Origin: Anagrus nilaparvatae
Taxonomy: Eukaryota; Arthropoda; Insecta; Hymenoptera; Mymaridae
DNA length: 64,000 bases
Assembly: GCA_022575985.1 (NCBI GenBank)
Contig: JAKSXM010000040.1
Coordinates: 13,472,001 to 13,536,000 of the forward strand
Reading direction: 5' to 3'
The notes beneath the pieces are model-generated. The model saw nothing but the letters and a program-made list of their open reading frames with translations. It was not told the DNA's origin and did no database searches. Shown here piece after piece: positions 20,334-49,706 of the stretch. Numbering within the stretch: position 1 is the first letter of the stretch; the number at the start of each line of letters is the position of its first letter. The position numbers and the translations under genes were made by a program.

Positions 20334-20346
20334 ATTCAGTGCAACA

Positions 20347-25053: not shown

Positions 25054-25075
25054 TTATTTTTTTTTTTTTTTTTTT

Positions 25076-25534
25076 TTAATCCCTATCCGTATCCGAATCG
25101 GAAATGATGTCCAAATTCAAATATCGTCGTGTAGTTCTTAAATATGCGTCACGATCTATTCTCCTTCTAATAAACGAAGGAGTTTATCTAATGATCTCAA
25201 TGTTAAAGTGGAATTTTTTTTCGCATAATGTGATTTCCGGTTTACCATCCACCATGCGGGTAATTGATTCAAATTCCTTTTTACAAAATGGACAAACGTT
25301 ATTTCGCAACATCCACTGTCTTATACACTCGAAACAAAATTTATGCACGCAAAAACTCAAAGTCGCCTCGTCTTGCAATTTCTCCAAACAAATACCGCAC
25401 TCTTCCTCCTCCCCCTTATCACTATCTTCTAAACACACCAACTCAACAGTCTTATTCGCATCCTTATCGGCTTTTTCTAAAGGCATTGGTTTTCCACTCT
25501 CACAAACCGTCGCGAGATCCATAAGAGATGCCAT
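25076..25534 (-). pseudogene. RING-finger protein (putative E3 ubiquitin ligase), possible premature stop
   Basis: The ATG at 25,534 opens MASLMDLATVCESGKPMP. An acidic linker leads to a C3HC4 RING: 'CGICLEKL', then 'FCVHKFCFECIRQW' and 'CPFCKKEF'. The frame stops at TAA 25,184-25,186 but continues in the same frame for about 35 codons (an Arg-rich stretch ending in Asp/Ser residues) to a second stop at 25,076. That tail could be chance, or the first stop could be a nonsense mutation. RING proteins recruit E2 enzymes and ubiquitinate targets; DNA viruses and some Polintons carry them, often to modify host defences. It is the last gene of the cluster and is co-oriented with the polymerase. Confidence 0.7.
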
Positions 25535-25599
25535 TTACTCGGTTACCAAAATAAAACTAACACCCTTTTAATTTATTTGTATACGATTTAAAATATTTA

Positions 25600-26798
25600 C
25601 TCGAGAAATCGTAAGATAACTCAACCCCTCTCCCTGGCCGTTGTAGCATCCCCTTTTCAAATATTCAAATATATTAGATATTTACATCGCAATGGTAAGA
25701 AAAAATTTTCAACACGCCCATCCCTTAAAAAAGTAAATACGTTTTTTCGTAAAAAATAAAAAAATACTCGCCATTTCTAATATTCATTAGAAAAAATAAC
25801 CAAATCATAATTTTATAGCTTGATACTTTAAATAAATAGACACCCTCCAAACGATTCTTTTACACATACGCACTTAACATTTACATAACTATAGAACAAA
25901 ATATTAATTCAAAAAATTTGTCAACACACACCCTCTATAATACTTTTATTATTGACATCACATACGAACTTAACATTTACATAACTATAGAACAAAATAT
26001 TCATTCAAAAAATTTGTCAACACACACCCTCTATAATACTTTTATTATTGATATCACTTGACAAAACAAATTTAAGATGCGCCCCCCTTTTCAAACTCTG
26101 ATTTAAAAAAATATTATAAAATACTCTCATATGCATAAAACGAATTTTTTTGACCTATACTTACAATAGACACAATCCTTTTATACCTTTATTATTAAAA
26201 ACACTTATATATATTTTTTAAACACCCACTTAACAAAAATACAAATTTAAAATGTGCTCCTCTTCAAACTCTGATTTAAAAAATATTATAAAAGACACCC
26301 TCTCAAAACAATCCTTTTATACAAATAATAATATTTTACCTTTATTATTAAAAATACTTATATATATATTTTTTATATTAGATATTTATATTAGATATAT
26401 CAAAGCGATTATTAATATTCTCATCCCATTCGTATTCTTTAAATCCATAATATCTTATTTTTTCATTAAAAATATAAGCATTCCTATCTTGAACCATAAC
26501 TTTTTCCAGTTCATCTTCATTTCTCCTTTCAATCTCCAAATTTACATATCTTTCTTCCATATCAGTTTGTAATTTAAAACAAAAACATCAAATCCCATCA
26601 CGTCATCTATGCTTTCTGATGTATATAGGTGTATCCATTACTTTTCATACAAAAGTGGGCGCACGCATGTCACCGATTGGGCTCAAATTTTAGATTATGT
26701 TTGGGGTTATAAAAAACTCACCTAGCCAAATTTTTAGCCCTCTAGAAGAATATGGAGCCAAGTTATGGCCTCCAAAAGGTCCAAAAAATGACCTATTT
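25600..26798. other. Right flank of the Polinton, no gene seen
   Basis: AT-rich sequence with short repeats. A plus-strand frame at 26,252-26,572 is rich in Ile, Phe and Asn and has no recognisable content, so I reject it. Motifs 'caaactctgattt' recur near 26,093 and 26,266. The Polinton terminus should lie here but I see no inverted match to the left side. Confidence 0.45.
25868..26058. repeat. Tandem duplication of about 107 bp
   Basis: The block with 'acttaacatttacataacta', 'caaaaaatttgtcaacacac' and 'cctctataatacttttatta' occurs twice, near 25,871-25,961 and 25,978-26,050, with almost no differences. It lies just beyond the RING gene and could be part of a degraded terminal repeat. Confidence 0.8.
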
Positions 26799-28836
26799 TA
26801 GCCTATTTTCAAAATTTTTCCATTCCCTTATTTTTCAGTCAAATTACTTTCGGCTGGTCGCATTTTTTTGGTATAAGCTTCAGAATTTACCAAAAAAATT
26901 TATAGACACTTTTATTACGTAGATTTTATTTGGCGATAAAAAATGTTAGATGACTGAAACGAAAAAAAACAGGAATTTCAAATTGGTGCCAAATCTGGAA
27001 ATCTTTATATAACTACTTACGGTTAGTCGCAAAATTTTGTACTACTCAAGACCTTTCGAATGCGACCTACAAAATTAAAAATGGCTGAAATTATCCGGAG
27101 TTGTACGTATTTTAGTTTGGTCGTTTTTCGGAAATTTTGATTTTTTTGCGTTTTCAAATTACTATAACTTTTTTCTATCATAACCAAAATGGCCAAAAAT
27201 TTCAGAGAATATTCTTCAAATATAAATAAATAATCTCTGAAATTTTGGTGGATGATATTGGCTTTTATCCGTTTTTATACATTCCCAAAAAAGCCTTATT
27301 CTTCACGTATTTTGTGTATTAAAGTGGACCTATTTTTGGACTTTGTGGAAAAACTTTGCTCCCCGGGTTTTTTTGTGATGTTTTGGTCATAAAAAGTTCC
27401 CAGTTCCAAGGATTTTGCTTTTGCGTTGCAAAAACACGTGCTTGTAAGCATCTCAATTTTCCCATTTAAATAACATAGGAATTTTGACTTTTCAGCTTTC
27501 TAATTTTTTACAAAGCTTGCAGAATGTTTTGAAAAGCTACTAATCGATGGAAAGTACTATTTAAATATATAAAAAATGATACCCAATCTCAAGTAGCCAA
27601 AAAAAATATTTTTTAAACGATTTTACTGGTAATAAACGAAAAAAAAGTACTCCATGGCTTCATGTAATTTAAATGGATATATTTTCGGACTCTGAGGACC
27701 TCATTTTCGAGTTTAGCGACACCGAAAACATATTAAGATGCATAGAAAACGTATTTTGAAAAAAAATTTTGTGGTTTGAGTAGATGTGTTATGTTCATAT
27801 GAGCACAGTACCCCCACCCCCTAGATAATAGAAATAAAATAGATAACCTTATTATATTATTTCTCAATATTTTTATTAATTATTCGCAATGATTATAAAA
27901 TAAGATAATTCTTTCATCATGTTTTATAAATTATATATTTTTATGTATATATGTTAAGTAGTATCACTTTGATAATTTTTTAATTTCTATATATTCTCAT
28001 ATTATAATATTACAATTATTGTTTTTAAAATATGACAATTTCTGTCAAATTTTAATTATGATTATTTTCTATTTTGTTCCTCCCCTTCTATCTTCGCTAA
28101 TTCCTTCCCCTTCCCCCTAGTTAATAGAAAAAAATATAAACAACATTAGTTAACAAGTATTTTATTTCTCCATCCACAGATAATTACATAAGTGTTATAA
28201 AATTATTACAATTAATTTAAAACAATAGTGTTTTATAAAATATTTATAATATATTTATTTAATTTTTTAATTATGTTTCTTTTTTGAGTTGATCCACCTC
28301 CTCTTCACCTCTCACTTATAAATTTTCCCTCTTCTGCTTGGGTTCAAGGTTAACTTACTTTTACACATTATAACTACGTTACGCTTTATGATTAAAGTTA
28401 TGTATAAAATACATAGAGTTTTTCAATCATTTAAAACACATATATATATATTAATATTTTTCTACATTTGAAGTTAAAGACCTAAGACAACTTTCAAAAT
28501 TTTTTACTTATTTTAAATTAAACCATAAAACAAAACACAGTTTTTGAAAAAAATATAGATAACCTTAGTTAACAAATTATACTATTAATTTATAAAATAT
28601 ATTTTTTTATTTTCATAAATATAATTACATTACAGAGTACATTAATGTTGTATGCGTCAAACATTTTAATTTTATTTTACTTTTTAATCCTTCATTAATC
28701 CTTTACTAATTATCATAACAAATATTTTATTTAAAAAAATATAAATCTGTTATAAATATTACAATTGGAGAATTTTTACGCATACCATCTAATAAAAGAA
28801 AAAACTCATAATAAGTTATATTAATTTTATTTTTTA

Positions 28837-29199
28837 TTAATTAGGAAAAAATAAAATATTTTTACATATATAATTATTAATATTAATATGAACTAAATCG
28901 CCTTGTCTCCAACAAAAAAGACAATGAGCTTTGAATTCATCAAAACTCATATTATCTCTAACATGTTCATTATATATAACCATTAAACTAACTACATCTT
29001 GAGAAGAAAAAAACAAAGTATTTGCATTTTGTCTTAATCTTGGTAATAGTTTTATATAAGAATAACAAAACATCATTGAATCAACTTTTTCGTGTCTACC
29101 GATATTAAAATATTTATAACATTCCTCGTCATCTGTTCCTTGATAAAAAATTTTTAAACGACGATTCATGTTGATTTTATTATAACTTTTTAATACCAC
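28837..29199 (-). pseudogene. Polinton-type packaging ATPase, C-terminal half (left arm copy)
   Basis: The 120-codon frame, probably starting at the internal Met of 'NKINMNRRLKIFY', contains 'YFNIGRHEKVDSMMFCYSY', 'LRQNANTLFFSSQDV', 'IYNEHVRDNMSFDEFKAHC' and a Trp after it. These align in order with the block 'LGRHKCLDIIYQIHSY ... LRDNCN ... QDELNLKH ... HVMGDMSFKQFKQLC' of the packaging ATPase at 15,262-15,942. Walker A and B are absent, and the upstream DNA is AT-rich with a possible splice acceptor ('tttctaatttgtatag' on minus). It is either a 3' exon or a fragment. The divergence shows that it is not a copy of the neighbouring Polinton but of another lineage. Activity is unlikely. Confidence 0.7.
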
Positions 29200-30036
29200 T
29201 CATGCAACTATACAAATTAGAAAAATATAATTTACAATATTTTTTCAAGTAATAACTTGATATAAGAAAATGTTGAGTTACACATTTATATTTGTTATAT
29301 AGTTAGTATTATCTATATATATAAACATATATATACACCTTACACATAACAGCTTATTCTTGTTTTTCATACCAATCATTCAAATTTCATATATATATAT
29401 TATACACACTTATATTTTTATGCACTAACTTAACTCTCTAACAATGTATATTATACTAGCACAACACTGATTCTATAATTTTCCAAGTTTTTATAGAAAG
29501 GTGAGAGTATTTTATTTAAATAAACTGTAAAACCTCATTTTCTACTTTTACCTTTTATAACACTTGTTATATATATCTTAAAAAAATTTTTGTATTACAT
29601 ATTTTTTTAACAACTACAAGACAATATTAAAAAAAATGAAAAATAGTGTAGTTGTTTATTTGTATCTCATATAAATTAATGTAGTAGTTTTCAGTTTCAT
29701 AATTTTTATTTTTTATTTCATGTCTAAACAATATCATTACAACTATTTACATAAATAATAAAATATTGAAATTAAATTTAATAAATTAGTATTATATTAA
29801 CTTAAGTTAAAAAATACATATAAACATAAGCTTTGTACTTATTATTATTCTTTTAAATTAATAAGTATTAATTTACTTTAAACTTTTTGAATTTATTATT
29901 AATATACTTGTAAAATAAAAAATTAAATTAACTAACATAATTTTAAACATATGCTTTATATAAATAATAAAATAATAAAATTAAATTTAACAAATTAGCA
30001 TAACTTAAAAAATATACATGAACATAAGCTTTACAC

Positions 30037-30072
<36 letters not shown>

Positions 30073-30211
30073 TTTAAAATTAATAACTTGAACAAGTTTA
30101 AAAAGAATGTATATATGTATATATTGAGAATAGAAACATAAGAAAAAAAGAATACCCATTCACCTACAAGCAAATCAATTGGATGCATGCTCTTACTTTC
30201 ATATGTATATA

Positions 30212-30258
<47 letters not shown>

Positions 30259-33200
30259 TTAAGAACACAACATTATAATAATTATATAAAACTAACGTCA
30301 CTGCGACTATTACTACATAACTTCAATTTTATGAATAAGAATTTAAACACTTGTACTTCTCACACGAATAATTTAAATGATATAATTTAAAAAAATTTTT
30401 TACACATTCTAAAAAAATATTATTTTATTTATTTATATAATAAAATCTTACAATAGATTCTTTGGTTATTAATATACACTTCATAAAAATAATAGGTGTA
30501 TATAAATATACACTTCAATAAAAATATTATTTAATTTGATAAGTTGCACAACACTAAAAATATTAGTATCTAAAATTTGTAGATAGGTGTATTTTGGATA
30601 ACGAAAAAACAAACAAAAAGTCCTATAAATGTCAAATGATACTGATTTGGATGTGAATAACAGTATACACCAGCAGAATATAATGATAAGTAATTAATAA
30701 ATTTATTTTTTTATTTTTATTTTTTACAAAGCAATATTATTTTAAATTCATTGTAATAAATCTATAACGCATACATAATTATCTTATATATAAAACACCT
30801 TATCAAAAAACCTTTTTCTTAATTTAAATTTACATATAAATCGTTTTATCAACTATTCTTAATATTGCACCTTAATATTTTAAGGTGGAATGTTAATAAA
30901 GCTTAACTAATAGTTTTATATTTTTATAATATTTTAATAAAAAGATAAAACGTTATATATTTTTATTTTTAAGAAATTATTTAAATTACTTATTAAATTA
31001 TGAGAATATATTAAAAAATATGAAATTAATATTACAGCATCCAAAGTTTCATATTGTAAATATTAAAACTTCATCATTTTTAATACACAGTAGATAACTT
31101 CAATTAACAAATAAAACTATATTTAAGAAAAATAATAACTAGATACGAGAAAAATGTTAAGTTACACATTTTATATTAGTTATATACTTAATATTATCTA
31201 TATAAACACATATACACTTTACATATAATATCTTATTCTTGTCTTTTAACACCCATCATTCACATTTCGTATATATTATACACTCTTATATTTATTATGC
31301 ACTAATTTAACACTTTAGCAACATATATTGTACTAAGACAACATTGATTATGTAACTTTTAAAGTTTTATAGAAAGGTGGGGTATTTATTGAATAAACTT
31401 CAGCACCTCATTTTCTACTTTTACCTTAAACAACATTTGTTATATATATTTTTCAATATTTTGTATTACATATTTTTATAATAACTACAAGACTATATTA
31501 AAAAAGTGAAAAAATAGTACAGTTGTTCATTTGTATCTCATATAAATTAATGTAGTAGTTTTTATTTTGTAATTTTTATTTTTCTATTTAATGTCTAAAT
31601 AGTATTATTGCATAGTATTACATAGAACAACTATTTACATTCATCGTAATGTAAAAGTTTACATTACATAGAACCCGATCTATTTGTATAGAAATTGATC
31701 TGATTTATATCCCTCATCGTCATGCTTTTTTATTAGCATATTTTAAAATATAAATTTTTTTTAATTTTTTTAAATCTTTTTTTAAATAGCTTTATGAAAA
31801 GTTTCTCGATACTATGGTATATCTATAAAGAATTAATTATATTGTTAATTAAATAATTGTCTACATTTTAAAAAAGTAAAGTCTATTGCATTATTTATTA
31901 AATGATACTTTTTCTTAATTAATTTTTTAACCCTCTAAATTGAGGAACTCATGCAGAAAACCGAACATGAAATTTTTTTGCGCTACTTCTATGCAGAAAA
32001 CAGTCATAAACAACATAGGTGTAAAACTTAAGACATTAACACGAACATATCACTCGAGACCAGTTTCATTAAACACTAATACAAGTGATTTCACTAAGCT
32101 AAAACTTTTAATTACTCAATACTTAATATAATATAATTTAACTTATTAAACAATATTTAATATAACAACCCCTATGTAACCTACATATACAAGTGCAAAA
32201 TAAAAACAATATTCACAAATATTAGAAAATGAATAAAAAATGGATATAAAAAAATTATTTTGTAATACATTGCATGAATTTTCAGTATAAATATGAACAG
32301 TTTTTAATCAAATCATCAATTAAATTTTTAGTTCTAAAAAGATTTTTGAATTAAAAAATGAGAAAAATATATAATTTCATATTTATTAAATAAAATAACC
32401 ATCCCAATAATCAATCATGATAGAATAATATATTTTTTTTCTTCAAAATTTGCATGAATCACTCTGATAAAGATCCTTAAATCAAAATTATTTTTAATAT
32501 TTTGATACACATAATTTTATTTACTTAATTAAAAAATTAAATAATCTAACTGATATGACTAATTATGCAAGTGAGCAAATAGAAAAAATATATAATCTTA
32601 GAAATATGTTTTCGTTTTTGTGTTTTAACATTATAAATAATATTAATCAAAAGCCTATATAACTTAAGTTAAGTGTATATAGTTTACAATAAAATTTTTC
32701 TATAAAAATATTAATAAAAAAATATTTTAACTTTTAAAATGAAATTCCTAATCAAATAAGATTATTTTTAGATTTAAGAAGCTCATTTCATATATATATA
32801 AAATCATTAATAATGTAATGTTGAATTAGTTTTTACATATAAGCATATATTAATATGTGTATAGTTATATAATAGTATTTTTTAAAAAAAGTTTTTAAAG
32901 ATACTGTTTTGATATAGAATGGAGAAGTATAAATAAAGATATTGTAAGCAACCAATAACCGCTTGATTCTTTATTTATTCTTTCTTTTCCTATATCAAAT
33001 AAGTTTCTTTAAAACCATGTTTTAAAAAGTATTTCTTATAATTATGACATCAAAGTGTATGTAAAGTAAAACTTTACACACTTTTTATCTATAAAGAAAA
33101 GATTGAATTTTCATGCAGATTAAATTTTGTAAAACTACATCTTAGACATTATTATTATAAAAGATGTTTTTAATGTTTAAGACATCGAGTTTTTTTATAT

Positions 33201-35360
33201 TAACATATACTCTGATACTCTAACTTGGTTCAGACACATTTTTGCACATTTAAATCATATAAAAAATGCAGGGATTAACCTTTTCACACTATCTACTCTC
33301 GACCATGCAAACAAGTGCATGCAAAGTAAAAACAATATTTTCTCCATTATTTAAAAAATTTTAAACAAATTTATTTCAAGCTTTAAAATACATAGATGAC
33401 AAATTTAATTCAATCATTGATTAAAATTACTTTTAAAAAGAGAGGTTTGACATAATTTTAAGATAATAGCTACCACATTAATATCAAAAAAAAAATTTAA
33501 TTTAAATGAATGGTAAGAAATTGAAATAATTTTAAGATAATAGCTACCACATTAATATCAAAAAAAAATTTAATTTAAATGAATGGTAAGAAATTTTGTA
33601 ATTTGAGTAAAAATTGTTTATTCAAATATTTTTACTATAAGATGTTCTTTTAAATTTTAGTTTCAAATTGTATTAATATTTAATAATATGTTTACTTTTA
33701 AATTCATTATTAATTTATTCGTTTTATTTAAATTTTTTATTTGAGTAAATTATTTTAAAGATATTTTTTAGATGGATAATTAGTGTAAATTACATTAACT
33801 TTATTTAGATAGAAATATATGTAATTAATTATATTTTTATAATTTTTTATTTTTTTTTAAATAATGTAAATAATATCTAACAGAATATTCAAGTTTTTTG
33901 TTACAAATTTTAGTTGAATATTTCCAATTAAATTTACTATAAACTTTAATTTGTATAAAATTCAATCGTTTTAATTAAAAATTTTTTTAAACTTGTACAC
34001 TGAAAAATTACCATAATTCAAATAATTTTTAATTAATTAATTACTGAGTATAAAAAATATAACTCTGTTATAAAAGAGTCAAACACAAAAGACATTAAAT
34101 TTTTTAATACCTATTTTAATTACTTACTGTAAAACTTCAAAACTGAAAAAGAGTAATCTTATTTCTAAACCATTTTAATAATAAGTATTATAAAAGAAAT
34201 ATTTATCCATATTGCAATAAGAATTTTTTTCTTCATTTTTTAATCTTAGAGTTATTTTCATGTATAGTTTTTGTAGTTCAAACAAAAAATTATCATTTTT
34301 TTAATGTAGAAAATTATTTTTTTATTATTTTCTTATTTGTAGAAAATAAGAATGTTAAATAAAAAAAATAACGATCAGGATTGAACAATTTTTTTATGAA
34401 ATCTTACACAAACCAATATTAAAAATTTTTAAACTTCTTGAAAATGAACCAGAATGTTTATTAAAAACAGTTTTTAATCACAAGCTATCAACATGCAAAC
34501 TACAAGCTAATACCAATTATTTTCTTCATTCAATACACTCATAAAACACACATACGTAATTAAAAAGCAGATTAATTAACTATTAAACCATATACTTTAT
34601 AATTAACCATAATGAAGATATAAGGAACCACATTATTTACACTAACATACAAGATCACATTAATTGACATAAAAATATGTCTTTTTACAATAAATTATCA
34701 ATCATTATTAACATAATACTTTTCGAAAGTACATTGAATTATTAAAATTACACACCTAAAAAAAACACTTCATAAGTAAAACTCTCACAAACAAAAATGT
34801 CTATAGATATGTATTTAACGATTAAACAATTAACTATTAATATTAATAACATAAAACTTCCCACAAAATAATTAAATCTTACACAAATTTTAAAATAAAC
34901 CTATAAAATAATAAAAATTAGGAAACATTTTTCACAATATATTTAAAAAAACACAAATCATAGATAATTTTTCAATCAATTTTTTTTTTTAAGCAATACA
35001 TACTATATATTTTTTAAATACTTTAAGATCATTCACTAGTTTGAATTCAGAACATATATAGTGCTTGTAATCATTAACTGATATCTCATATATCATTTAT
35101 AATCATCTTTTACTAGAATTCAGTTTTTATAAAAGGAGGTAGGCTTTTTCATATAAAAAATAGATTTTCTTTATTTTTCAGGTAATTCTAACCGAACATC
35201 TAAAGACTAATTCAAAGTCATTTTATATCCCCATTCATTTTACCTGGTTGTATGGAATCTCTTCTTTGAAATCCTCTTCATTAAGCAACAAACTTAACAT
35301 ACTTTTTAGGTAAATATAAACGATCTTGGACTGCTTATTAGTTTACAAGAGGGATTCTCC
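29200..35360. other. Left palindrome arm, no recognised gene
   Basis: Over 6 kb of very AT-rich DNA. The frame 31,940-32,131 (63 codons, mirrored at 42,129-42,320) has no recognisable domain; it is the same DNA read twice. A 66-bp block is tandemly duplicated at 33,450-33,590 ('gataatagctaccacattaa'). I see no RNA genes. The right arm mirrors this from about 38,900 to 46,960. Confidence 0.5.
30187..30260. repeat. (TA)n microsatellite in left arm
   Basis: A run of about 50 bp of TA repeats, with a nearby (ATT)n tract at 30,041-30,072. The corresponding right-arm sites (about 44,003-44,033 and 45,838-46,121) are where the two arm-specific insertions sit, so these microsatellites served as targets. 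Confidence 0.85.
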
Positions 35361-35439
35361 TGGGCACTAATTGATTAAAGATTATTTAAAAATCCATTTA
35401 TTCAATCATTTGACAAGACTACCTTTCCAGTTAACCAGA

Positions 35440-38400
35440 CTAGAAACCAACCAAACAGTTGCTACAGTTAACCTGCAACCAACCAAGCGGTTGCTGCAAG
35501 CGATGCTTGGTAGGCTTTTTCATATAAAAACTAGATTTTCTTCATTTTTCAGGTAATTAATTCTAACCAATCATCTAAAGACTAATTCAAAGTCATTTTA
35601 TATCCCAGTTACTGCATCCGCAAGCGGTTTGTCAAACCGAGCGGTTAATCAAGCAGTTTGTAGTAAACGGGCAGAGCGGTCGGTTTTTGTCGAAGACAAA
35701 AAATACTAATTCAGATTTAAAGTGAATTTTTTATCTAAGTGTTTAAATCAAGTAAGATTTTAGCCGAACTTAACTACATATGTTTTCGTTATTACAAATA
35801 GTTTTTTAAAAATAAATTAATTTAATAAACTACTATAAGTATAAATATATTATTAATTTAAAATATTAAATTTTTTTAAATTAAAATATTAATAGGTACA
35901 TACTTTGTTCTGATAAAACCATTTTTTTAATATTCAAACTTTTAATACAATTAATTTTAACTAATTTTAATACAAAAATAATGTTTTTTTACAGAAAAAA
36001 TTTTTAAAATCTTATACTTGCTTAAGATAAAAAAATTTTTATCCATACCCCACTTTTATCTTCATAGATAAGCCGAACGGGTTATTTTTTTTACTTATTG
36101 AATACAAATTATATTTTCTCAATACTTTTTATAGTATTTTAAAATCAACTTTTAAAATCAGAATAAAAAAATTTTTTTCTTATCATGTCTCATTTTTTCC
36201 TATACTCTGTATCACTGTGCAACGGTTACTGCATCCAGAAGCGGTTAACCGCTCGGTTTGACAAGCAGATTGTAGTTAACGGACAGAAGCAGTGTAGAAA
36301 AAAGTTTTAAATTATTTTGAACTTAAAAATCAAATTAAAACTCGTACCAATCGGTTTAACATCCATATTAATAAATTATGTGTATGTTAATGTAGGGGTT
36401 TAGAAAAAACACTGTGGTTAACTAGAAACCACCCAATCCTAAGTTTAATATTTTGTATTAACATATTTTGTATTAAAAAAAAAAAAAAATGGTTCTATCA
36501 GAACAAAGTATGTACTTATTAATAATATAATTAAAAAATTTAATATTTTAAATTAATAATTTATTTATACTTATAGTAGTTTATTAAATTAGTTTATTTT
36601 TTAAATATATTAAAAATATATTTAAATATATTTAAATATATTTCCTGTTAACGAAGGTAAAGTAATGTATGATATATTATACCGGTTTAACAAACCGCTT
36701 GTGGTTGCAGTAACCCGCGCGGTTACGATTAATAAATTATGTGTATGTTAATGTAGGGTTTAGAAAAAACACTGTGGTTAACTAGAAACCATACAATCCT
36801 AAGTTTAATATTTTGTATTAAAATATTTTGTATTAAAAAAAAAAAATGGTTTTATCAGAACAAAGTATGTACTTATTATATAATTAAAAAATTTTAATAT
36901 TTTAAATTAATAATTTATTTATACTTATAGTAGTTTATTAAATTAGTTTATTTTTTAAATAACTATTTGTAATAACGAAAACATATATATAGCTAAGTTC
37001 GGTTAAAATCTTATTTGATTAACACTTAGATAAATAAATTCACTTTAAATCTGAATTAGTATTTTTGTTTTTGACAAAAACCAACCGCTCTTCTGTTAAC
37101 TGTAAACCGCTTGCGGTTGCAGTAACCGCCGGTTACAGTAGCAACCGCAAGCGGTTTACAGTTAACAGAAGAGCGGTTGGTTTTTGTCAAAAACAAAAAT
37201 ACTAATTCAGATTTAAAGTGAATTTATTTATCTAAGTGTTAATCAAATAAGATTTTAACCGAACTTAGCTATATATATGTTTTCGTTATTACAAATAGTT
37301 ATTTAAAAAATAAACTAATTTAATAAACTACTATAAGTATAAATAAATTATTAATTTAAAATATTAAAATTTTTTAATTATATAATAAGTACATACTTTG
37401 TTCTGATAAAACCATTTTTTTTTTTTAATACAAAATATTTTAATACAAAATATTAAACTTAGGATTGTATGGTTTCTAGTTAACCACAGTGTTTTTTCTA
37501 AACCCTACATTAACATACACATAATTTATTAATCGTAACCGCGCGGGTTACTGCAACCGCAAGCGGTTTGTTAAACCGGTATAATATATCATACATTACT
37601 TTACCTTCGTTAACAGGAAATATATTTAAATATATTTAAATATATTTTTAATATATTTAAAAAATAAACTAATTTAATAAACTACTATAAGTATAAATAA
37701 ATTATTAATTTAAAATATTAAATTTTTTAATTATATTATTAATAAGTACATACTTTGTTCTGATAGAACCATTTTTTTTTTTTTTAATACAAAATATGTT
37801 AATACAAAATATTAAACTTAGGATTGGGTGGTTTCTAGTTAACCACAGTGTTTTTTCTAAACCCCTACATTAACATACACATAATTTATTAATATGGATG
37901 TTAAACCGATTGGTACGAGTTTTAATTTGATTTTTAAGTTCAAAATAATTTAAAACTTTTTTCTACACTGCTTCTGTCCGTTAACTACAATCTGCTTGTC
38001 AAACCGAGCGGTTAACCGCTTCTGGATGCAGTAACCGTTGCACAGTGATACAGAGTATAGGAAAAAATGAGACATGATAAGAAAAAAATTTTTTTATTCT
38101 GATTTTAAAAGTTGATTTTAAAATACTATAAAAAGTATTGAGAAAATATAATTTGTATTCAATAAGTAAAAAAAATAACCCGTTCGGCTTATCTATGAAG
38201 ATAAAAGTGGGGTATGGATAAAAATTTTTTTATCTTAAGCAAGTATAAGATTTTAAAAATTTTTTCTGTAAAAAAACATTATTTTTGTATTAAAATTAGT
38301 TAAAATTAATTGTATTAAAAGTTTGAATATTAAAAAAATGGTTTTATCAGAACAAAGTATGTACCTATTAATATTTTAATTTAAAAAAATTTAATATTTT

Positions 38401-38820
38401 AAATTAATAATATATTTATACTTATAGTAGTTTATTAAATTAATTTATTTTTAAAAAACTATTTGTAATAACGAAAACATATGTAGTTAAGTTCGGCTAA
38501 AATCTTACTTGATTTAAACACTTAGATAAAAAATTCACTTTAAATCTGAATTAGTATTTTTTGTCTTCGACAAAAACCGACCGCTCTGCCCGTTTACTAC
38601 AAACTGCTTGATTAACCGCTCGGTTTGACAAACCGCTTGCGGATGCAGTAACTGGGATATAAAATGACTTTGAATTAGTCTTTAGATGATTGGTTAGAAT
38701 TAATTACCTGAAAAATGAAGAAAATCTAGTTTTTATATGAAAAAGCCTACCAAGCATCGCTTGCAGCAACCGCTTGGTTGGTTGCAGGTTAACTGTAGCA
38801 ACTGTTTGGTTGGTTTCTAG
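35440..38820. repeat. Palindrome centre: AACCGC/GCGGTT motif cluster and nested repeats
   Basis: Short motifs of the type 'gttactgcaaccgcaagcgg' and its complement recur near 35,450-35,690, 36,225-36,290, 36,690-36,730, 37,080-37,165, 37,540-37,580, 37,985-38,035 and 38,580-38,655. They are the only GC-rich spots in an otherwise AT-only region. The exact centre (37,122-37,136) is a perfect 7-bp stem 'gtaaccg' around one base. A ~120-bp block containing 'atcagaacaaagtatgtac' occurs six times in alternating orientation (near 35,900, 36,500, 36,850, 37,400, 37,750 and 38,350). The layout resembles terminal repeats with protein-binding sites folded head-to-head. Confidence 0.75.
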
Positions 38821-41800
38821 TCTGGTTAACTGGAAAGGTAGTCTTGTCAAATGATTGAATAAATGGATTTTTAAATAATCTTTAATCAATTAGTGCCCAG
38901 GAGAATCCCTCTTGTAAACTAATAAGCAGTCCAAGATCGTTTATATTTACCTAAAAAGTATGTTAAGTTTGTTGCTTAATGAAGAGGATTTCAAAGAAGA
39001 GATTCCATACAACCAGGTAAAATGAATGGGGATATAAAATGACTTTGAATTAGTCTTTAGATGTTCGGTTAGAATTACCTGAAAAATAAAGAAAATCTAT
39101 TTTTTATATGAAAAAGCCTACCTCCTTTTATAAAAACTGAATTCTAGTAAAAGATGATTATAAATGATATATGAGATATCAGTTAATGATTACAAGCACT
39201 ATATATGTTCTGAATTCAAACTAGTGAATGATCTTAAAGTATTTAAAAAATATATAGTATGTATTGCTTAAAAAAAAAAATTGATTGAAAAATTATCTAT
39301 GATTTGTGTTTTTTTAAATATATTGTGAAAAATGTTTCCTAATTTTTATTATTTTATAGGTTTATTTTAAAATTTGTGTAAGATTTAATTATTTTGTGGG
39401 AAGTTTTATGTTATTAATATTAATAGTTAATTGTTTAATCGTTAAATACATATCTATAGACATTTTTGTTTGTGAGAGTTTTACTTATGAAGTGTTTTTT
39501 TTAGGTGTGTAATTTTAATAATTCAATGTACTTTCGAAAAGTATTATGTTAATAATGATTGATAATTTATTGTAAAAAGACATATTTTTATGTCAATTAA
39601 TGTGATCTTGTATGTTAGTGTAAATAATGTGGTTCCTTATATCTTCATTATGGTTAATTATAAAGTATATGGTTTAATAGTTAATTAATCTGCTTTTTAA
39701 TTACGTATGTGTGTTTTATGAGTGTATTGAATGAAGAAAATAATTGGTATTAGCTTGTAGTTTGCATGTTGATAGCTTGTGATTAAAAACTGTTTTTAAT
39801 AAACATTCTGGTTCATTTTCAAGAAGTTTAAAAATTTTTAATATTGGTTTGTGTAAGATTTCATAAAAAAATTGTTCAATCCTGATCGTTATTTTTTTTA
39901 TTTAACATTCTTATTTTCTACAAATAAGAAAATAATAAAAAAATAATTTTCTACATTAAAAAAATGATAATTTTTTGTTTGAACTACAAAAACTATACAT
40001 GAAAATAACTCTAAGATTAAAAAATGAAGAAAAAAATTCTTATTGCAATATGGATAAATATTTCTTTTATAATACTTATTATTAAAATGGTTTAGAAATA
40101 AGATTACTCTTTTTCAGTTTTGAAGTTTTACAGTAAGTAATTAAAATAGGTATTAAAAAATTTAATGTCTTTTGTGTTTGACTCTTTTATAACAGAGTTA
40201 TATTTTTTATACTCAGTAATTAATTAATTAAAAATTATTTGAATTATGGTAATTTTTCAGTGTACAAGTTTAAAAAAATTTTTAATTAAAACGATTGAAT
40301 TTTATACAAATTAAAGTTTATAGTAAATTTAATTGGAAATATTCAACTAAAATTTGTAACAAAAAACTTGAATATTCTGTTAGATATTATTTACATTATT
40401 TAAAAAAAAATAAAAAATTATAAAAATATAATTAATTACATATATTTCTATCTAAATAAAGTTAATGTAATTTACACTAATTATCCATCTAAAAAATATC
40501 TTTAAAATAATTTACTCAAATAAAAAATTTAAATAAAACGAATAAATTAATAATGAATTTAAAAGTAAACATATTATTAAATATTAATACAATTTGAAAC
40601 TAAAATTTAAAAGAACATCTTATAGTAAAAATATTTGAATAAACAATTTTTACTCAAATTACAAAATTTCTTACCATTCATTTAAATTAAATTTTTTTTT
40701 GATATTAATGTGGTAGCTATTATCTTAAAATTATTTCAATTTCTTACCATTCATTTAAATTAAATTTTTTTTTTGATATTAATGTGGTAGCTATTATCTT
40801 AAAATTATGTCAAACCTCTCTTTTTAAAAGTAATTTTAATCAATGATTGAATTAAATTTGTCATCTATGTATTTTAAAGCTTGAAATAAATTTGTTTAAA
40901 ATTTTTTAAATAATGGAGAAAATATTGTTTTTACTTTGCATGCACTTGTTTGCATGGTCGAGAGTAGATAGTGTGAAAAGGTTAATCCCTGCATTTTTTA
41001 TATGATTTAAATGTGCAAAAATGTGTCTGAACCAAGTTAGAGTATCAGAGTATATGTTAATATAAAAAAACTCGATGTCTTAAACATTAAAAACATCTTT
41101 TATAATAATAATGTCTAAGATGTAGTTTTACAAAATTTAATCTGCATGAAAATTCAATCTTTTCTTTATAGATAAAAAGTGTGTAAAGTTTTACTTTACA
41201 TACACTTTGATGTCATAATTATAAGAAATACTTTTTAAAACATGGTTTTAAAGAAACTTATTTGATATAGGAAAAGAAAGAATAAATAAAGAATCAAGCG
41301 GTTATTGGTTGCTTACAATATCTTTATTTATACTTCTCCATTCTATATCAAAACAGTATCTTTAAAAACTTTTTTTAAAAAATACTATTATATAACTATA
41401 CACATATTAATATATGCTTATATGTAAAAACTAATTCAACATTACATTATTAATGATTTTATATATATATGAAATGAGCTTCTTAAATCTAAAAATAATC
41501 TTATTTGATTAGGAATTTCATTTTAAAAGTTAAAATATTTTTTTATTAATATTTTTATAGAAAAATTTTATTGTAAACTATATACACTTAACTTAAGTTA
41601 TATAGGCTTTTGATTAATATTATTTATAATGTTAAAACACAAAAACGAAAACATATTTCTAAGATTATATATTTTTTCTATTTGCTCACTTGCATAATTA
41701 GTCATATCAGTTAGATTATTTAATTTTTTAATTAAGTAAATAAAATTATGTGTATCAAAATATTAAAAATAATTTTGATTTAAGGATCTTTATCAGAGTG

Positions 41801-44001
41801 ATTCATGCAAATTTTGAAGAAAAAAAATATATTATTCTATCATGATTGATTATTGGGATGGTTATTTTATTTAATAAATATGAAATTATATATTTTTCTC
41901 ATTTTTTAATTCAAAAATCTTTTTAGAACTAAAAATTTAATTGATGATTTGATTAAAAACTGTTCATATTTATACTGAAAATTCATGCAATGTATTACAA
42001 AATAATTTTTTTATATCCATTTTTTATTCATTTTCTAATATTTGTGAATATTGTTTTTATTTTGCACTTGTATATGTAGGTTACATAGGGGTTGTTATAT
42101 TAAATATTGTTTAATAAGTTAAATTATATTATATTAAGTATTGAGTAATTAAAAGTTTTAGCTTAGTGAAATCACTTGTATTAGTGTTTAATGAAACTGG
42201 TCTCGAGTGATATGTTCGTGTTAATGTCTTAAGTTTTACACCTATGTTGTTTATGACTGTTTTCTGCATAGAAGTAGCGCAAAAAAATTTCATGTTCGGT
42301 TTTCTGCATGAGTTCCTCAATTTAGAGGGTTAAAAAATTAATTAAGAAAAAGTATCATTTAATAAATAATGCAATAGACTTTACTTTTTTAAAATGTAGA
42401 CAATTATTTAATTAACAATATAATTAATTCTTTATAGATATACCATAGTATCGAGAAACTTTTCATAAAGCTATTTAAAAAAAGATTTAAAAAAATTAAA
42501 AAAAATTTATATTTTAAAATATGCTAATAAAAAAGCATGACGATGAGGGATATAAATCAGATCAATTTCTATACAAATAGATCGGGTTCTATGTAATGTA
42601 AACTTTTACATTACGATGAATGTAAATAGTTGTTCTATGTAATACTATGCAATAATACTATTTAGACATTAAATAGAAAAATAAAAATTACAAAATAAAA
42701 ACTACTACATTAATTTATATGAGATACAAATGAACAACTGTACTATTTTTTCACTTTTTTAATATAGTCTTGTAGTTATTATAAAAATATGTAATACAAA
42801 ATATTGAAAAATATATATAACAAATGTTGTTTAAGGTAAAAGTAGAAAATGAGGTGCTGAAGTTTATTCAATAAATACCCCACCTTTCTATAAAACTTTA
42901 AAAGTTACATAATCAATGTTGTCTTAGTACAATATATGTTGCTAAAGTGTTAAATTAGTGCATAATAAATATAAGAGTGTATAATATATACGAAATGTGA
43001 ATGATGGGTGTTAAAAGACAAGAATAAGATATTATATGTAAAGTGTATATGTGTTTATATAGATAATATTAAGTATATAACTAATATAAAATGTGTAACT
43101 TAACATTTTTCTCGTATCTAGTTATTATTTTTCTTAAATATAGTTTTATTTGTTAATTGAAGTTATCTACTGTGTATTAAAAATGATGAAGTTTTAATAT
43201 TTACAATATGAAACTTTGGATGCTGTAATATTAATTTCATATTTTTTAATATATTCTCATAATTTAATAAGTAATTTAAATAATTTCTTAAAAATAAAAA
43301 TATATAACGTTTTATCTTTTTATTAAAATATTATAAAAATATAAAACTATTAGTTAAGCTTTATTAACATTCCACCTTAAAATATTAAGGTGCAATATTA
43401 AGAATAGTTGATAAAACGATTTATATGTAAATTTAAATTAAGAAAAAGGTTTTTTGATAAGGTGTTTTATATATAAGATAATTATGTATGCGTTATAGAT
43501 TTATTACAATGAATTTAAAATAATATTGCTTTGTAAAAAATAAAAATAAAAAAATAAATTTATTAATTACTTATCATTATATTCTGCTGGTGTATACTGT
43601 TATTCACATCCAAATCAGTATCATTTGACATTTATAGGACTTTTTGTTTGTTTTTTCGTTATCCAAAATACACCTATCTACAAATTTTAGATACTAATAT
43701 TTTTAGTGTTGTGCAACTTATCAAATTAAATAATATTTTTATTGAAGTGTATATTTATATACACCTATTATTTTTATGAAGTGTATATTAATAACCAAAG
43801 AATCTATTGTAAGATTTTATTATATAAATAAATAAAATAATATTTTTTTAGAATGTGTAAAAAATTTTTTTAAATTATATCATTTAAATTATTCGTGTGA
43901 GAAGTACAAGTGTTTAAATTCTTATTCATAAAATTGAAGTTATGTAGTAATAGTCGCAGTGACGTTAGTTTTATATAATTATTATAATGTTGTGTTCTTA
44001 A

Positions 44002-44033
<32 letters not shown>

Positions 44034-44035
<2 letters not shown>

Positions 44036-45672
44036 GCATATCTCACCAAGTGGTTATATTTCTAATTTTATAAAATAAATTTTATTTTTGAGAGCACAAT
44101 AACGACATTTGGACAGAAGTTTAATAAAACAATAAAAATTAAGATTTTCTTTGCGTAACTTAATTTTAAGCTACGGCGTTTGATAAATGAACTTCTTAAA
44201 TTACAAAATATATTTAAGGTTATATTTACTAAATGATGAAATTAGTTCTCAAAAATACTGGAAAATATAGAGGTACATAACAATAAATTTTATTTCTGTC
44301 CAAAAACCAATAATAAGAAGATAAATTTTCAATTTTTTTATAAACAAAAAATTAAATGTTCTACCTTCTAGATTTAATCTCTGGTTCTACAGACTGCGCT
44401 ATAGTTATAGCGAGGCTAAGCTCTCTGAATCTTTAACTCATTGCTCCTCGCATTGCTCACATAAAGCCTAAGTTACTGCTAAAATCATGGGCGGATCAAA
44501 AGGGGGGTATTAAGGGTAATTGCCTCCCCTGAGCTCCAAAAAATGCATGTTTTTTGTTCATAATTTTGTTTTTTTATACAAATTTCATCAGAAAACATAC
44601 AAAATTTTGCTTAAGAGCCCCACCCCCTTAGGTCCTTTTCTGAATCCGCCACTGGTTAAAATATGATCGCATTATTTTATTATAATTTATTAAATCATTT
44701 AGTTGTGCCTTTTATGATTTTTCAAACATTTTTTTAGAGTTTTTGATTTTTTTCAAAATGTATTTTTTTTGAAATATAGATTTTAATGATCCACTAAGTA
44801 TGACCTACAACTACATAATTTTATTTATTTTTTTAAAGCACTAAATTCAAATCAAAAACATCTTTTTTGAACTAAGAATGAAATATAGGTAGTTCTTACA
44901 CGTTTGTTATTTTTAGGTTATTGGTAAACAACGCTTCTAAATTGTACGATTATTTTATATAAAACTGAGGTTTATACATACAACGCATTGAATCAAGCTA
45001 TGCCGTTTTTTTTAACTGAAATCTTATAACATTTTACATAAATCACAAAAGATTTTGCGAAGATTTTTTAAAAATTGAACGAGTGCCATTAAAAAATGTG
45101 ATTTTAGTACCAAAATTACGCATCGACAACAAAGCCTTTTGATGTCGATATCTACAAAATTATTGGAGGCACCAGTTTTTCTCAAATCACTTTCAAATTG
45201 TGAAACATTGTAGAGAATTTTCACAATAGTTAGAAATAAAAATTGTTCACGGCATTCATTTGTGGCTTAAAAAACTTTCTTTGATCGTATTTATTTGAAA
45301 ATATGGTTACCAATATTTCAGCTGGCAGAATTTTTTTTAGAAAAGGAGCACACTGTTTTAATTATGTGAAGAAATTAAATATATTATTAATTTATCAAAA
45401 TCTATTTATAAAAAGGCAAATGGTTTTACGGCATTCCCACTGTAATGTTAAGAATTTAAAAAACTTAACAAGGTTACCAACAAAATATTAGGGTTTCGAA
45501 TCATTCCAAGGTTGTTATTTCATAATAATTAACGAAATTAGGCAAAAAAATTTCTTGAGGCTTGAGAAGAAATATATATAAATAAATTTCAATAATTTTT
45601 TTTTGAAACAGAAAGCTGGATTTTCATTAAAGCTCTCATATATGCAATATAACCACTTGGTGAGATATGCCC
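44034..45672. mobile_element. 1.64-kb element with 26-bp TIRs, right arm only
   Basis: The ends are 'gggcatatctcaccaagtgg' plus ttatat and the exact inverse. It sits inside a (TA)n tract that is uninterrupted in the left arm. No transposase is recognisable; frames at 45,024-45,224 and 45,303-45,491 are short and unrevealing. The stretch 44,480-44,660 carries the phrase 'gggcggatcaaaaggggg' and, facing it, 'ctgaatccgccac', a local inverted repeat common in insect repeats. Likely a non-autonomous DNA transposon of unknown superfamily. Confidence 0.8.
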
Positions 45673-45844
45673 ATATATATATATAAATATATATACATAT
45701 GAAAGTAAGAGCATGCATCCAATTGATTTGCTTGTAGGTGAATGGGTATTCTTTTTTTCTTATGTTTCTATTCTCAATATATACATATATACATTCTTTT
45801 TAAACTTGTTCAAGTTATTAATTTTAAAGAATAATAATAATAAT

Positions 45845-45846
<2 letters not shown>

Positions 45847-45880
<34 letters not shown>

Positions 45881-46077
45881 CTTGCACAGTGGCAGAGAGG
45901 TGAGAATGCGTTACGCACGAACAGAACCCGGTGTTCTGAACAGTGTCGGACTCCATGATGGCAAGGCACTCTACAAAGAATGCATTGCCCCATGTTTACC
46001 GACTAAACTCACCCCTCATCATACCTTATACAAGTCAGCCCGGAACCGTTTATCACATTACATCGGGTTGACTTAAC
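45847..46077. mobile_element. SINE-like insertion, right arm only
   Basis: A T-run of about 30 bases is followed by about 190 bp of markedly GC-richer sequence, inserted in an (AAT)n microsatellite. The element lacks a counterpart at the mirror position (about 30,050). 'tggcagagagg' near 45,890 matches the RNA polymerase III A-box consensus on plus, whereas the T-run would be a poly(A) tail if the SINE lies on minus. I therefore leave the strand open. The GC-rich body and the homopolymer end fit a SINE better than a MITE. Confidence 0.55.
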
Positions 46078-46082
46078 TTAAT

Positions 46083-46124
<42 letters not shown>

Positions 46125-46961
46125 GTGTAAAGCTTATGTTCATGTATATTTTTTAAGTTATGCTAATTTGTTAAATTTAATTTTATTATTTTATTATTTA
46201 TATAAAGCATATGTTTAAAATTATGTTAGTTAATTTAATTTTTTATTTTACAAGTATATTAATAATAAATTCAAAAAGTTTAAAGTAAATTAATACTTAT
46301 TAATTTAAAAGAATAATAATAAGTACAAAGCTTATGTTTATATGTATTTTTTAACTTAAGTTAATATAATACTAATTTATTAAATTTAATTTCAATATTT
46401 TATTATTTATGTAAATAGTTGTAATGATATTGTTTAGACATGAAATAAAAAATAAAAATTATGAAACTGAAAACTACTACATTAATTTATATGAGATACA
46501 AATAAACAACTACACTATTTTTCATTTTTTTTAATATTGTCTTGTAGTTGTTAAAAAAATATGTAATACAAAAATTTTTTTAAGATATATATAACAAGTG
46601 TTATAAAAGGTAAAAGTAGAAAATGAGGTTTTACAGTTTATTTAAATAAAATACTCTCACCTTTCTATAAAAACTTGGAAAATTATAGAATCAGTGTTGT
46701 GCTAGTATAATATACATTGTTAGAGAGTTAAGTTAGTGCATAAAAATATAAGTGTGTATAATATATATATATGAAATTTGAATGATTGGTATGAAAAACA
46801 AGAATAAGCTGTTATGTGTAAGGTGTATATATATGTTTATATATATAGATAATACTAACTATATAACAAATATAAATGTGTAACTCAACATTTTCTTATA
46901 TCAAGTTATTACTTGAAAAAATATTGTAAATTATATTTTTCTAATTTGTATAGTTGCATGA

Positions 46962-47324
46962 GTGGTATTAAAAAGTTATAATAAAATCAACATGAATCGT
47001 CGTTTAAAAATTTTTTATCAAGGAACAGATGACGAGGAATGTTATAAATATTTTAATATCGGTAGACACGAAAAAGTTGATTCAATGATGTTTTGTTATT
47101 CTTATATAAAACTATTACCAAGATTAAGACAAAATGCAAATACTTTGTTTTTTTCTTCTCAAGATGTAGTTAGTTTAATGGTTATATATAATGAACATGT
47201 TAGAGATAATATGAGTTTTGATGAATTCAAAGCTCATTGTCTTTTTTGTTGGAGACAAGGCGATTTAGTTCATATTAATATTAATAATTATATATGTAAA
47301 AATATTTTATTTTTTCCTAATTAA
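46962..47324 (+). pseudogene. Polinton-type packaging ATPase, C-terminal half (right arm copy)
   Basis: This is the mirror copy of the frame at 28,837-29,199, with an identical predicted protein of 120 codons. Perfect conservation of both copies means either a recent inverted duplication, ongoing gene conversion between arms, or an assembly duplication. The same residues mark it as an ATPase relative: the Gly-Arg-His triplet, the Ser-Tyr pair, Leu-Arg...Asn, Gln-Asp and the Met-Ser-Phe...Phe-Lys stretch. N-terminal nucleotide-binding motifs are again missing upstream. Confidence 0.7.
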
Positions 47325-48211
47325 TAAAAAATAAAATTAATATAACTTATTATGAGTTTTTTCTTTTATTAGATGGTATGCGTAAAAATTCTCCAATTGT
47401 AATATTTATAACAGATTTATATTTTTTTAAATAAAATATTTGTTATGATAATTAGTAAAGGATTAATGAAGGATTAAAAAGTAAAATAAAATTAAAATGT
47501 TTGACGCATACAACATTAATGTACTCTGTAATGTAATTATATTTATGAAAATAAAAAAATATATTTTATAAATTAATAGTATAATTTGTTAACTAAGGTT
47601 ATCTATATTTTTTTCAAAAACTGTGTTTTGTTTTATGGTTTAATTTAAAATAAGTAAAAGATTTTGAAAGTTGTCTTAGGTCTTTAACTTCAAATGTAGA
47701 AAAATATTAATATATATATATGTGTTTTAAATGATTGAAAAACTCTATGTATTTTATACATAACTTTAATCATAAAGCGTAACGTAGTTATAATGTGTAA
47801 AAGTAAGTTAACCTTGAACCCAAGCAGAAGAGGGAAAATTTATAAGTGAGAGGTGAAGAGGAGGTGGATCAACTCAAAAAAGAAACATAATTAAAAAATT
47901 AAATAAATATATTATAAATATTTTATAAAACACTATTGTTTTAAATTAATTGTAATAATTTTATAACACTTATGTAATTATCTGTGGATGGAGAAATAAA
48001 ATACTTGTTAACTAATGTTGTTTATATTTTTTTCTATTAACTAGGGGGAAGGGGAAGGAATTAGCGAAGATAGAAGGGGAGGAACAAAATAGAAAATAAT
48101 CATAATTAAAATTTGACAGAAATTGTCATATTTTAAAAACAATAATTGTAATATTATAATATGAGAATATATAGAAATTAAAAAATTATCAAAGTGATAC
48201 TACTTAACATA

Positions 48212-48381
48212 TATACATAAAAATATATAATTTATAAAACATGATGAAAGAATTATCTTATTTTATAATCATTGCGAATAATTAATAAAAATATTGAGAA
48301 ATAATATAATAAGGTTATCTATTTTATTTCTATTATCTAGGGGGTGGGGGTACTGTGCTCATATGAACATAACACATCTAC
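48212..48381. repeat. 170-bp direct repeat, copy 1 (inside right arm)
   Basis: It runs from 'tatacataaaaatatataat' to 'gaacataacacatctac'. The identical block recurs at 49,361-49,530. Its inverse also lies in the left arm at about 27,782-27,950, as expected from the palindrome. Confidence 0.9.
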
Positions 48382-49360
48382 TCAAACCACAAAATTTTTT
48401 TTCAAAATACGTTTTCTATGCATCTTAATATGTTTTCGGTGTCGCTAAACTCGAAAATGAGGTCCTCAGAGTCCGAAAATATATCCATTTAAATTACATG
48501 AAGCCATGGAGTACTTTTTTTTCGTTTATTACCAGTAAAATCGTTTAAAAAATATTTTTTTTGGCTACTTGAGATTGGGTATCATTTTTTATATATTTAA
48601 ATAGTACTTTCCATCGATTAGTAGCTTTTCAAAACATTCTGCAAGCTTTGTAAAAAATTAGAAAGCTGAAAAGTCAAAATTCCTATGTTATTTAAATGGG
48701 AAAATTGAGATGCTTACAAGCACGTGTTTTTGCAACGCAAAAGCAAAATCCTTGGAACTGGGAACTTTTTATGACCAAAACATCACAAAAAAACCCGGGG
48801 AGCAAAGTTTTTCCACAAAGTCCAAAAATAGGTCCACTTTAATACACAAAATACGTGAAGAATAAGGCTTTTTTGGGAATGTATAAAAACGGATAAAAGC
48901 CAATATCATCCACCAAAATTTCAGAGATTATTTATTTATATTTGAAGAATATTCTCTGAAATTTTTGGCCATTTTGGTTATGATAGAAAAAAGTTATAGT
49001 AATTTGAAAACGCAAAAAAATCAAAATTTCCGAAAAACGACCAAACTAAAATACGTACAACTCCGGATAATTTCAGCCATTTTTAATTTTGTAGGTCGCA
49101 TTCGAAAGGTCTTGAGTAGTACAAAATTTTGCGACTAACCGTAAGTAGTTATATAAAGATTTCCAGATTTGGCACCAATTTGAAATTCCTGTTTTTTTTC
49201 GTTTCAGTCATCTAACATTTTTTATCGCCAAATAAAATCTACGTAATAAAAGTGTCTATAAATTTTTTTGGTAAATTCTGAAGCTTATACCAAAAAAATG
49301 CGACCAGCCGAAAGTAATTTGACTGAAAAATAAGGGAATGGCAAAATTTTGAAAATAGGC

Positions 49361-49530
49361 TATACATAAAAATATATAATTTATAAAACATGATGAAAGA
49401 ATTATCTTATTTTATAATCATTGCGAATAATTAATAAAAATATTGAGAAATAATATAATAAGGTTATCTATTTTATTTCTATTATCTAGGGGGTGGGGGT
49501 ACTGTGCTCATATGAACATAACACATCTAC
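49361..49530. repeat. 170-bp direct repeat, copy 2 (at the palindrome's outer right junction)
   Basis: This copy begins exactly where the inverted match with the left arm ends (49,362) and stops where unrelated sequence starts (49,531). It is the scar of whatever event closed the right end of the palindrome: a template switch, an end-joining step, or an assembly overlap. Confidence 0.9.
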
Positions 49531-49706
49531 TGGTTTGCACTAATTGTCGGTGTTAGACAACCACTTGAGAGCTACCCTGGGTTTGTGCGACCCCTAAATC
49601 GTTCTTAAATCAGCTGAAAATTAGTACGGGATCATTTTGTCACCTAAACTTCAACATACTTCAGGAAGAACATTTTGGGCGCACTTTTTTTTTTGAACAA
49701 CCCTAT

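Follow-up and report, generated by a model that had tools for sequence, protein, structure and literature searches.

Long palindromes with Polinton-type ends in the genome of Anagrus nilaparvatae: putative snap-back mobile elements

What is a giant palindrome with a piece of a packaging ATPase gene in each arm, and how could it have come to lie in a chromosome? This question is raised by a 64,000-nucleotide stretch of the Anagrus nilaparvatae genome (GenBank assembly GCA_022575985.1, contig JAKSXM010000040.1, here C79, positions 13,472,001 to 13,536,000 of the forward strand), which is referred to as the window. Judging from sequence patterns, we consider it probable, with room for doubt, that the palindrome belongs to a class of Polinton-derived mobile elements that are palindromic over nearly their full length, and that these are helper-dependent snap-back derivatives integrating as palindromes.

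The window palindrome and its ends

The window contains a near-perfect inverted repeat, in which positions 26,799–37,120 are mirrored by 37,141–49,362 with three substitutions and one one-base gap over 10,167 aligned bases. The arms are AT-rich (17–28% GC) and measure 10,331 bp on the left and 12,231 bp on the right. The right arm is longer by 1,900 bp because two insertions, a DNA element with terminal inverted repeats (TIRs) and an insertion that we take to be of the short interspersed element (SINE) type, are present in this arm only (Table 1). Both are younger than the palindrome. The original prediction of a giant near-perfect palindrome is confirmed by this alignment. Its arms had been described as matching base for base, which is correct outside the two insertions apart from the four small differences, and its centre as having a one-base spacer. 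There is hardly any spacer indeed, but on folding, the 146 nt round the centre form one hairpin, closed by a 3-nt loop and interrupted by one small bulge.

The left terminus of the element, set by comparison with sister copies, is situated at 27,779 and reads AGTAGATGTGTTATGTTCAT. The same element end recurs at 48,382 and at 49,531. Because the hexamer GGTTTG flanks both 27,779 and 49,531, the element spans 27,779–49,531. The limits proposed originally, 26,799–49,362, had to be moved, since the outer 980 bp (26,799–27,778) are host flank. The host flank region at 26,622–27,677 is similar (~96%) to a repeat elsewhere in the genome.

At the right end of the window element, the order is element end, copied host flank, element end. 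The junction between the flank copy and the second 171-bp end is 2 bp, TA. We regard the flank copy as the footprint of arm-to-arm copying in the chromosome; the geometry is directly visible, and a plausible pathway can be suggested for it. The right arm would have been broken 171 bp from its end and repaired using the left arm as template. Copying would then have overrun the end of the left arm into 980 bp of host flank, before being joined to the remaining right end.

Table 1. Features of the window palindrome and its surroundings (window positions)
Feature	Position	Strand	Basis
Whole candidate mobile element, 21,753 bp, AGTAGATG ends	27779..49531	.	Ends and 6-bp duplication
Left target duplication, GGTTTG	27773..27778	.	
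Right target duplication, GGTTTG	49532..49537	.	
Left arm of element	27779..37120	+	
Right arm of element	37141..48382	-	
Centre, slightly asymmetric, hairpin-forming, without the longer hairpin spacer of the C234 and C196 palindromes	37121..37140	.	
ATPase C-terminal fragment, 120 aa, left arm	28840..29199	-	
ATPase C-terminal fragment, 120 aa, right arm	46962..47321	+	
Block common to window and C1 palindrome, 81%; mirror ~43,049–44,029	30231..31211	+	
Block common to window and FLYWCH palindrome group, 81–91%, without long frame; mirror ~40,361–41,196	33064..33899	+	
TIR-bearing DNA element, ~1.64 kb, in TA repeat, right arm only (limits approximate)	44034..45672	.	
SINE-like insertion, ~230 bp, poly-T start, right arm only (limits approximate)	45848..46077	-	
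Host flank, source of overrun copy	26799..27778	+	
Left host flank copied inverted onto right side	48383..49362	-	
Extra 171-bp element end, identical to 27,779–27,949 and 48,212–48,382	49361..49531	-	

A Polinton lies in the window as well (12641–25571). Its frames resemble those of DUF8207, ATPase, PLA2, protease, integrase and polymerase proteins, some of these names being presumptive, and the polymerase is divided among several frames. In the stretches tried, no pair of AGT/ACT ends was found for this Polinton that has a 6-bp duplication and is alike at 14 or more of 30 positions.

The only recognised gene piece in the group of palindromes to which that of the window belongs is an ATPase fragment of 120 amino acids. 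As had been predicted, it is identical between the arms and distinct from the ATPase at 15.3 kb, with which it shares 37.7% identity over ~69 amino acids. It corresponds to residues 214–293 of a 323-residue ATPase, presumably behind the Walker motifs. Among the 150 of 217 candidate matches that were scored, eight are 89–100% identical to the fragment, and the 142 others are 31–42% identical. No homologue was found in the protein database among candidates limited to proteins of similar length, and a PDB sequence search, an Rfam scan and a tRNA scan gave no match. When the copies of the window and C234 are compared with those of C62 and C317, dN/dS is 0.75–0.88, and the C317 copy contains a stop codon, so that the frame appears to be a decayed fragment. 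The ratio is 0.50 between C317 and C62, and 0.21 between the two C62 arms, where it rests on four changes only. Purifying selection on the frame was considered and rejected because of the near-neutral ratios and the stop in C317. The suggestion that the palindrome is an unrecognised virus with its own gene set was not upheld, as the window arms hold just this near-neutral fragment.

Polymerase and integrase gave no tblastn match in the window arms when pieces from the window's own Polinton were used as query; for integrase this covers the window arms only, as no genome-wide search was made. No palindrome was found in the list for the polymerase family PF03175, for which 83 of 370 candidates were scored. 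Capsid proteins and protease, with proteins of the window Polinton and of a compact Polinton (see below) as queries, gave no tblastn match in the window arms either.

Related palindromes and their genes

Searches of the 488.7-Mb assembly (393 contigs) with pieces of the arms, one of the checks called for originally, revealed inverted pairs at many sister loci, and the palindrome is thus not unique. Besides the window, such pairs are present at C234, C62, C1, C79:5.91 and C95:16.71 (positions in Mb), and further ones at C373:10.47, C373:11.97, C196 and C317; these loci were read in part. For four palindromes, those of the window, C62, C234 and C1, both ends were read. In each of them the ends are AGTAG, and the element is flanked by a perfect 6-bp duplication that is private to the locus. 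The duplicated sequence is GGTTTG in the window and GGAACG, CTAGTG and CTTTTA in the others, and at C234 the ends are (AGT)2. Random AGTAG/CTACT pairs from the same sequence agreed over 6 bp in 112 of 200,000 draws. The earlier idea of a frozen replication intermediate is not supported, since the four palindromes are integrated with different target duplications.

The two arms of one locus differ by 0–1% at seven loci, which is below the difference between loci. In the aligned parts, the substitutions number 0/6,195 at C1, 2/9,999 at C234, 3/3,376 at C196, 12/3,457 at C79:5.91, 21/3,406 at C62 and 47/4,695 at C373:5.57, and there is 1/3,477 in the outer part of C95:16.71. Between loci, the arms differ by less than 1% over most of their aligned length for the window, C196 and C234, and by up to 20–25% for others. 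Loci that were read end to end and have no large extra insertions are ~20 kb in size, with arms of ~10 kb.

The end motif of the window element occurs at six genome sites, two in C62, three in C79 (all in the window) and one in C317, and its reversed-pattern control at none. The C1 end occurs at seven sites (control 0): both ends of the C1 palindrome, one single site, and the ends of two stretches, C47:268,058–289,237 (21.2 kb) and C347:145,683–167,952 (22.3 kb), each of which has a Polinton ATPase match inside.

The centres of the palindromes are not all alike. C234 and C196 have a common spacer of ~80 nt, in opposite orientations relative to their contigs, which forms nested hairpins (z = -12.8 and -14.0). 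This spacer is absent from the window, and C1 and C79:5.91 have other centres. The C196 and C62 palindromes each contain an insertion near the equivalent of window position 35,000, and the two insertions have no blastn match to each other. The AT-rich spot at this position is a hotspot that received two unrelated transposons. A shared transposon as proof of inheritance between these two palindromes was rejected on the same grounds.

The palindromes of a second group (C1, C79:5.91 and C95:16.71) have in each arm an open frame of 285–291 amino acids, which consists of a FLYWCH zinc finger and a C-terminal match to the Polinton domain DUF8207 (PF26634). Named relatives of this protein in the database are from Leptopilina and aphids. 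Three database relatives (P0001, P0002 and P0007) keep both parts at 40–73% identity, which indicates that the fusion has been retained in the long run. Between C1 and C79:5.91 the dN/dS of the frame is 0.80–0.87. At C373:5.57, each arm has three frames, of 329 (FLYWCH-DUF8207), 132 and 350 amino acids (DUF8207), the last being split into two frames in the right arm. A search of IMG/VR, which may not include the records of this genome, gave no match to the FLYWCH alignment.

FLYWCH loci were obtained from 150 of at least 155 matches (134 of 507 candidates scored), clustered at 12 kb. Copies are present on both strands at 23 of the 87 loci and on one strand only at 64. All 23 inverted pairs point outward, with the left copy in minus and the right copy in plus orientation, and none has the opposite arrangement; for four of the pairs (C1, C79:5.91, C95:16.71 and C373:5.57) the comparison extended along the arms. 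For 11 of 13 pairs the own partner is the nearest copy in gene DNA, and the tree joins 10 of the 13 pairs as sisters, weakly supported in one case (C347). The pairs are spread over several clades, and the C156 pair, known from its gene DNA, clusters with three rows of compact Polintons (100/100). The palindromic pairs therefore probably arose more than once. An inverted FLYWCH pair, 98.9% alike, is situated just to the right of the window (C79:13558803–13563624).

These compact Polintons are Polinton-like proviruses, of which one (C62:26,269,622–26,280,128) is 10.5 kb long, with a TIR of 678 bp and the duplication TCGGAA. Its frames are 277 aa, 554 aa, minor-capsid-like, protease-like, PLA2-like, ATPase, DUF8207 (378 aa) and FLYWCH-DUF8207; we take the 554-aa frame to be the major capsid protein, and several of the other names are likewise assumed or given by similarity to the window's Polinton. 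Polymerase and integrase were not noticed among these listed frames, where no search for them was made. A structure model of a relative of the 277-aa family (mean pLDDT 42.5) was not usable. The products of the 378-aa frame (L035) and the FLYWCH frame (L034, 288 aa) of this provirus are two different proteins with one DUF8207 tail in common at the C-terminus, reminiscent of a docking tag.

The end motif of the compact provirus occurs at 25 genome sites (control 0), which form nine pairs 10.5–12.5 kb apart, one pair 17.3 kb apart and five single sites. The 17.3-kb stretch (C62:60502175–60519432) has the exact end at each border and contains a polymerase match; the compact form may therefore be its deletion derivative.

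The centre of the C79:5.91 palindrome corresponds to the left end of the compact provirus: the 277-aa gene with the inner TIR matches at 88.6% and the TIR at 92%, and each side retains a remnant of the 554-aa frame next to it. This palindrome therefore consists of two left ends placed head to head, with internal deletions. An inverted dimer of an unrecognised Polinton-like virus had been proposed for the window. A related palindrome built round a Polinton-like left end agrees with the dimer, but the unrecognised virus is without support.

Origin of the palindromes

Long palindromes with Polinton-type ends, target duplications and Polinton-derived genes are present at several loci, and one of them has a conversion-like footprint. 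For their formation and movement we propose the following. The elements would descend from Polinton-type viruses, of which they have retained the AGTAG ends, the target duplication of 6 bp on integration, and pieces or small sets of genes. Having lost polymerase and integrase, they would presumably use those of resident Polintons, and would thus depend on a helper. The displaced strand of a protein-primed linear genome would probably fold back at a hairpin-forming sequence and be copied into a head-to-head inverted dimer, both ends of which would be the same origin and integration end. The integrase of a resident Polinton would insert this dimer. After integration the arms can still copy each other, as is evident from the flank overrun at the right end of the window element.

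Tentatively, the elements might even form a standing class of palindromic satellites of Polinton viruses, with snap-back replication from one end type and several origins in one genome. In the FLYWCH group, the DNA-binding zinc finger with its fused DUF8207 tail of the helper might then dock satellite DNA to helper proteins. We consider this extension possible but doubtful.

Several observations weigh against a Polinton-derived snap-back origin. The window arms share just an ATPase fragment with Polintons, and both the ATPase and the FLYWCH frames are near-neutral between the copies compared. The link of the palindrome to Polintons, as originally predicted, is backed by the homology of the fragment to the ATPase at 15.3 kb, the AGTAG ends and the 6-bp duplication, but Pfam does not recognise the fragment. 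The genome search found the window end motif at palindromes only (6/6 matches) and at no site outside palindromic loci. The negative result for polymerase is weak, as the PF03175 list also lacks the window's own polymerase pieces, and a distant or broken polymerase could escape. Among the FLYWCH loci, C147:16.91 is no true pair but two different copies (86.6%), and C347 is 98.0% identical to its own partner versus 98.6% to the pair next to the window (C79:13.56).

The palindrome could instead have formed once or a few times by ordinary rearrangement and move as an element with very long TIRs, the arms being identical only through conversion in the chromosome. The overrun of the left host flank onto the right side of the window element represents arm-to-arm copying after integration, and the three substitutions in arms that have two large one-sided insertions look as if small differences had been erased. 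Moreover, C234 and C196 share their central spacer, and therefore at least these two inherit one palindrome. However, the arms of C1 and C234 are identical or nearly so and their ends have no sign of overrun, which fits new copies that start identical, and palindromic pairs occur in several clades and with different centres. We regard conversion as the sole cause as rather unlikely, although it should be taken seriously.

It is far less probable that a local inverted duplication of host DNA, or a fault of the assembly, encloses a Polinton fragment. Perfect palindromes are a known assembly fault, and 980 bp of host flank do form part of the palindrome at the window locus. Against this, there are many sister loci, and at all four loci with both ends read the 6-bp duplications lie outside the palindrome; the transposon insertions that distinguish the arms, and the architecture shared with the other loci, make an artefact unlikely. 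Nor do we give much credit to a self-sufficient virus with a palindromic genome. Such a virus would suit the members with as many as three frames in each arm (C373:5.57) and the relatives that the FLYWCH-DUF8207 fusion has elsewhere, but no polymerase, integrase or intact capsid gene was recognised in the arms, and the IMG/VR search, with its limit given above, gave no match. Finally, the host could use the inverted repeats to make hairpin RNA that silences Polintons. Long self-complementary arms with pieces of Polinton genes, in a genome rich in Polinton ATPases, would suit such a locus, but the copies integrate like mobile elements, and transcripts of the FLYWCH and ATPase frames themselves, which are directed away from the centre, would not run across it. 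A silencing function is thus very improbable, and the Polinton-derived snap-back element remains the reading that we favour.

In chromosomes, a long perfect palindrome is unstable, and genomes of the fold-back kind are generally regarded as by-products of viral replication. If the favoured reading is true, mirror-image genomes can be heritable mobile elements that are integrated at several sites, and the palindromes preserve a natural trace of how protein-primed elements replicate by fold-back. The family would also offer a direct setting for the study of arm-to-arm conversion.

Neighbouring features and known systems

Other repeats are present in the window. Positions 3281–7737 contain a palindrome-like inverted repeat with internal repeats, the arms of which are ~2 kb long and 97.8% alike; its ends start ATATACAACGTG and not AGTAG. 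A 187-bp unit forms a tandem array of 7.8 copies at 10680–12135. Two direct repeats of 829 bp (53971–54799 and 56955–57783), 3 kb apart and 99.76% alike, resemble the long terminal repeats of a young element. The frames at 59122–61127 presumably resemble a Penelope-type reverse transcriptase with a GIY-YIG end, and one of them gave no clear match in Pfam.

According to the excerpts of PMC8097293 and PMC4028283 on which this comparison is based, Polintons (Mavericks) are defined by features that the palindromes share, namely AGT-type ends, a 6-bp target duplication and, in pieces, the Polinton genes. The TIRs of intact vertebrate Mavericks are 46–1,447 bp long in the excerpt of PMC8097293, whereas the arms here make up the whole element, in which no polymerase or integrase was recognised. 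As the ends and the target duplication of a Polinton are found in the window element and the core genes are not, we classify it as a putative non-autonomous Polinton derivative and not as a Polinton. The compact Polinton-like proviruses of the same genome (10.5–12.5 kb) have the FLYWCH-DUF8207 gene, AGTAG ends and 6-bp duplication in common with the palindromes, but contain each gene in a single copy and, in the copy read, a TIR of only 678 bp; they look non-autonomous.

Teratorn, a fusion of a herpesvirus with piggyBac, differs in its unique region of many genes, its piggyBac transposase and its 18-bp TIRs. Foldback/Galileo-type elements have long, internally repetitive inverted repeats as well, but in the excerpts of the literature used here they are relatives of P elements or Mutator, without Polinton genes. 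Among the matches listed in a literature search covering titles and the starts of abstracts, with preprints and most subscription journals outside its scope, there were no palindromic Polinton elements and nothing that links Polintons with FLYWCH.

The best analogue is the snap-back genome of adeno-associated virus (AAV). According to an excerpt of PMC8235507, this genome is self-complementary, its replication uses Rep and the helper functions of adenovirus, and the dimers that it forms are joined head to head. The palindromes described here are likewise self-complementary over most of their length, and a fold-back genome that is copied into a head-to-head dimer with the functions of a helper is what we propose for them. 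Snap-back AAV genomes, however, are parvovirus by-products found in virions, whereas the palindromes are elements of ~20 kb from another lineage, integrated with target duplications.

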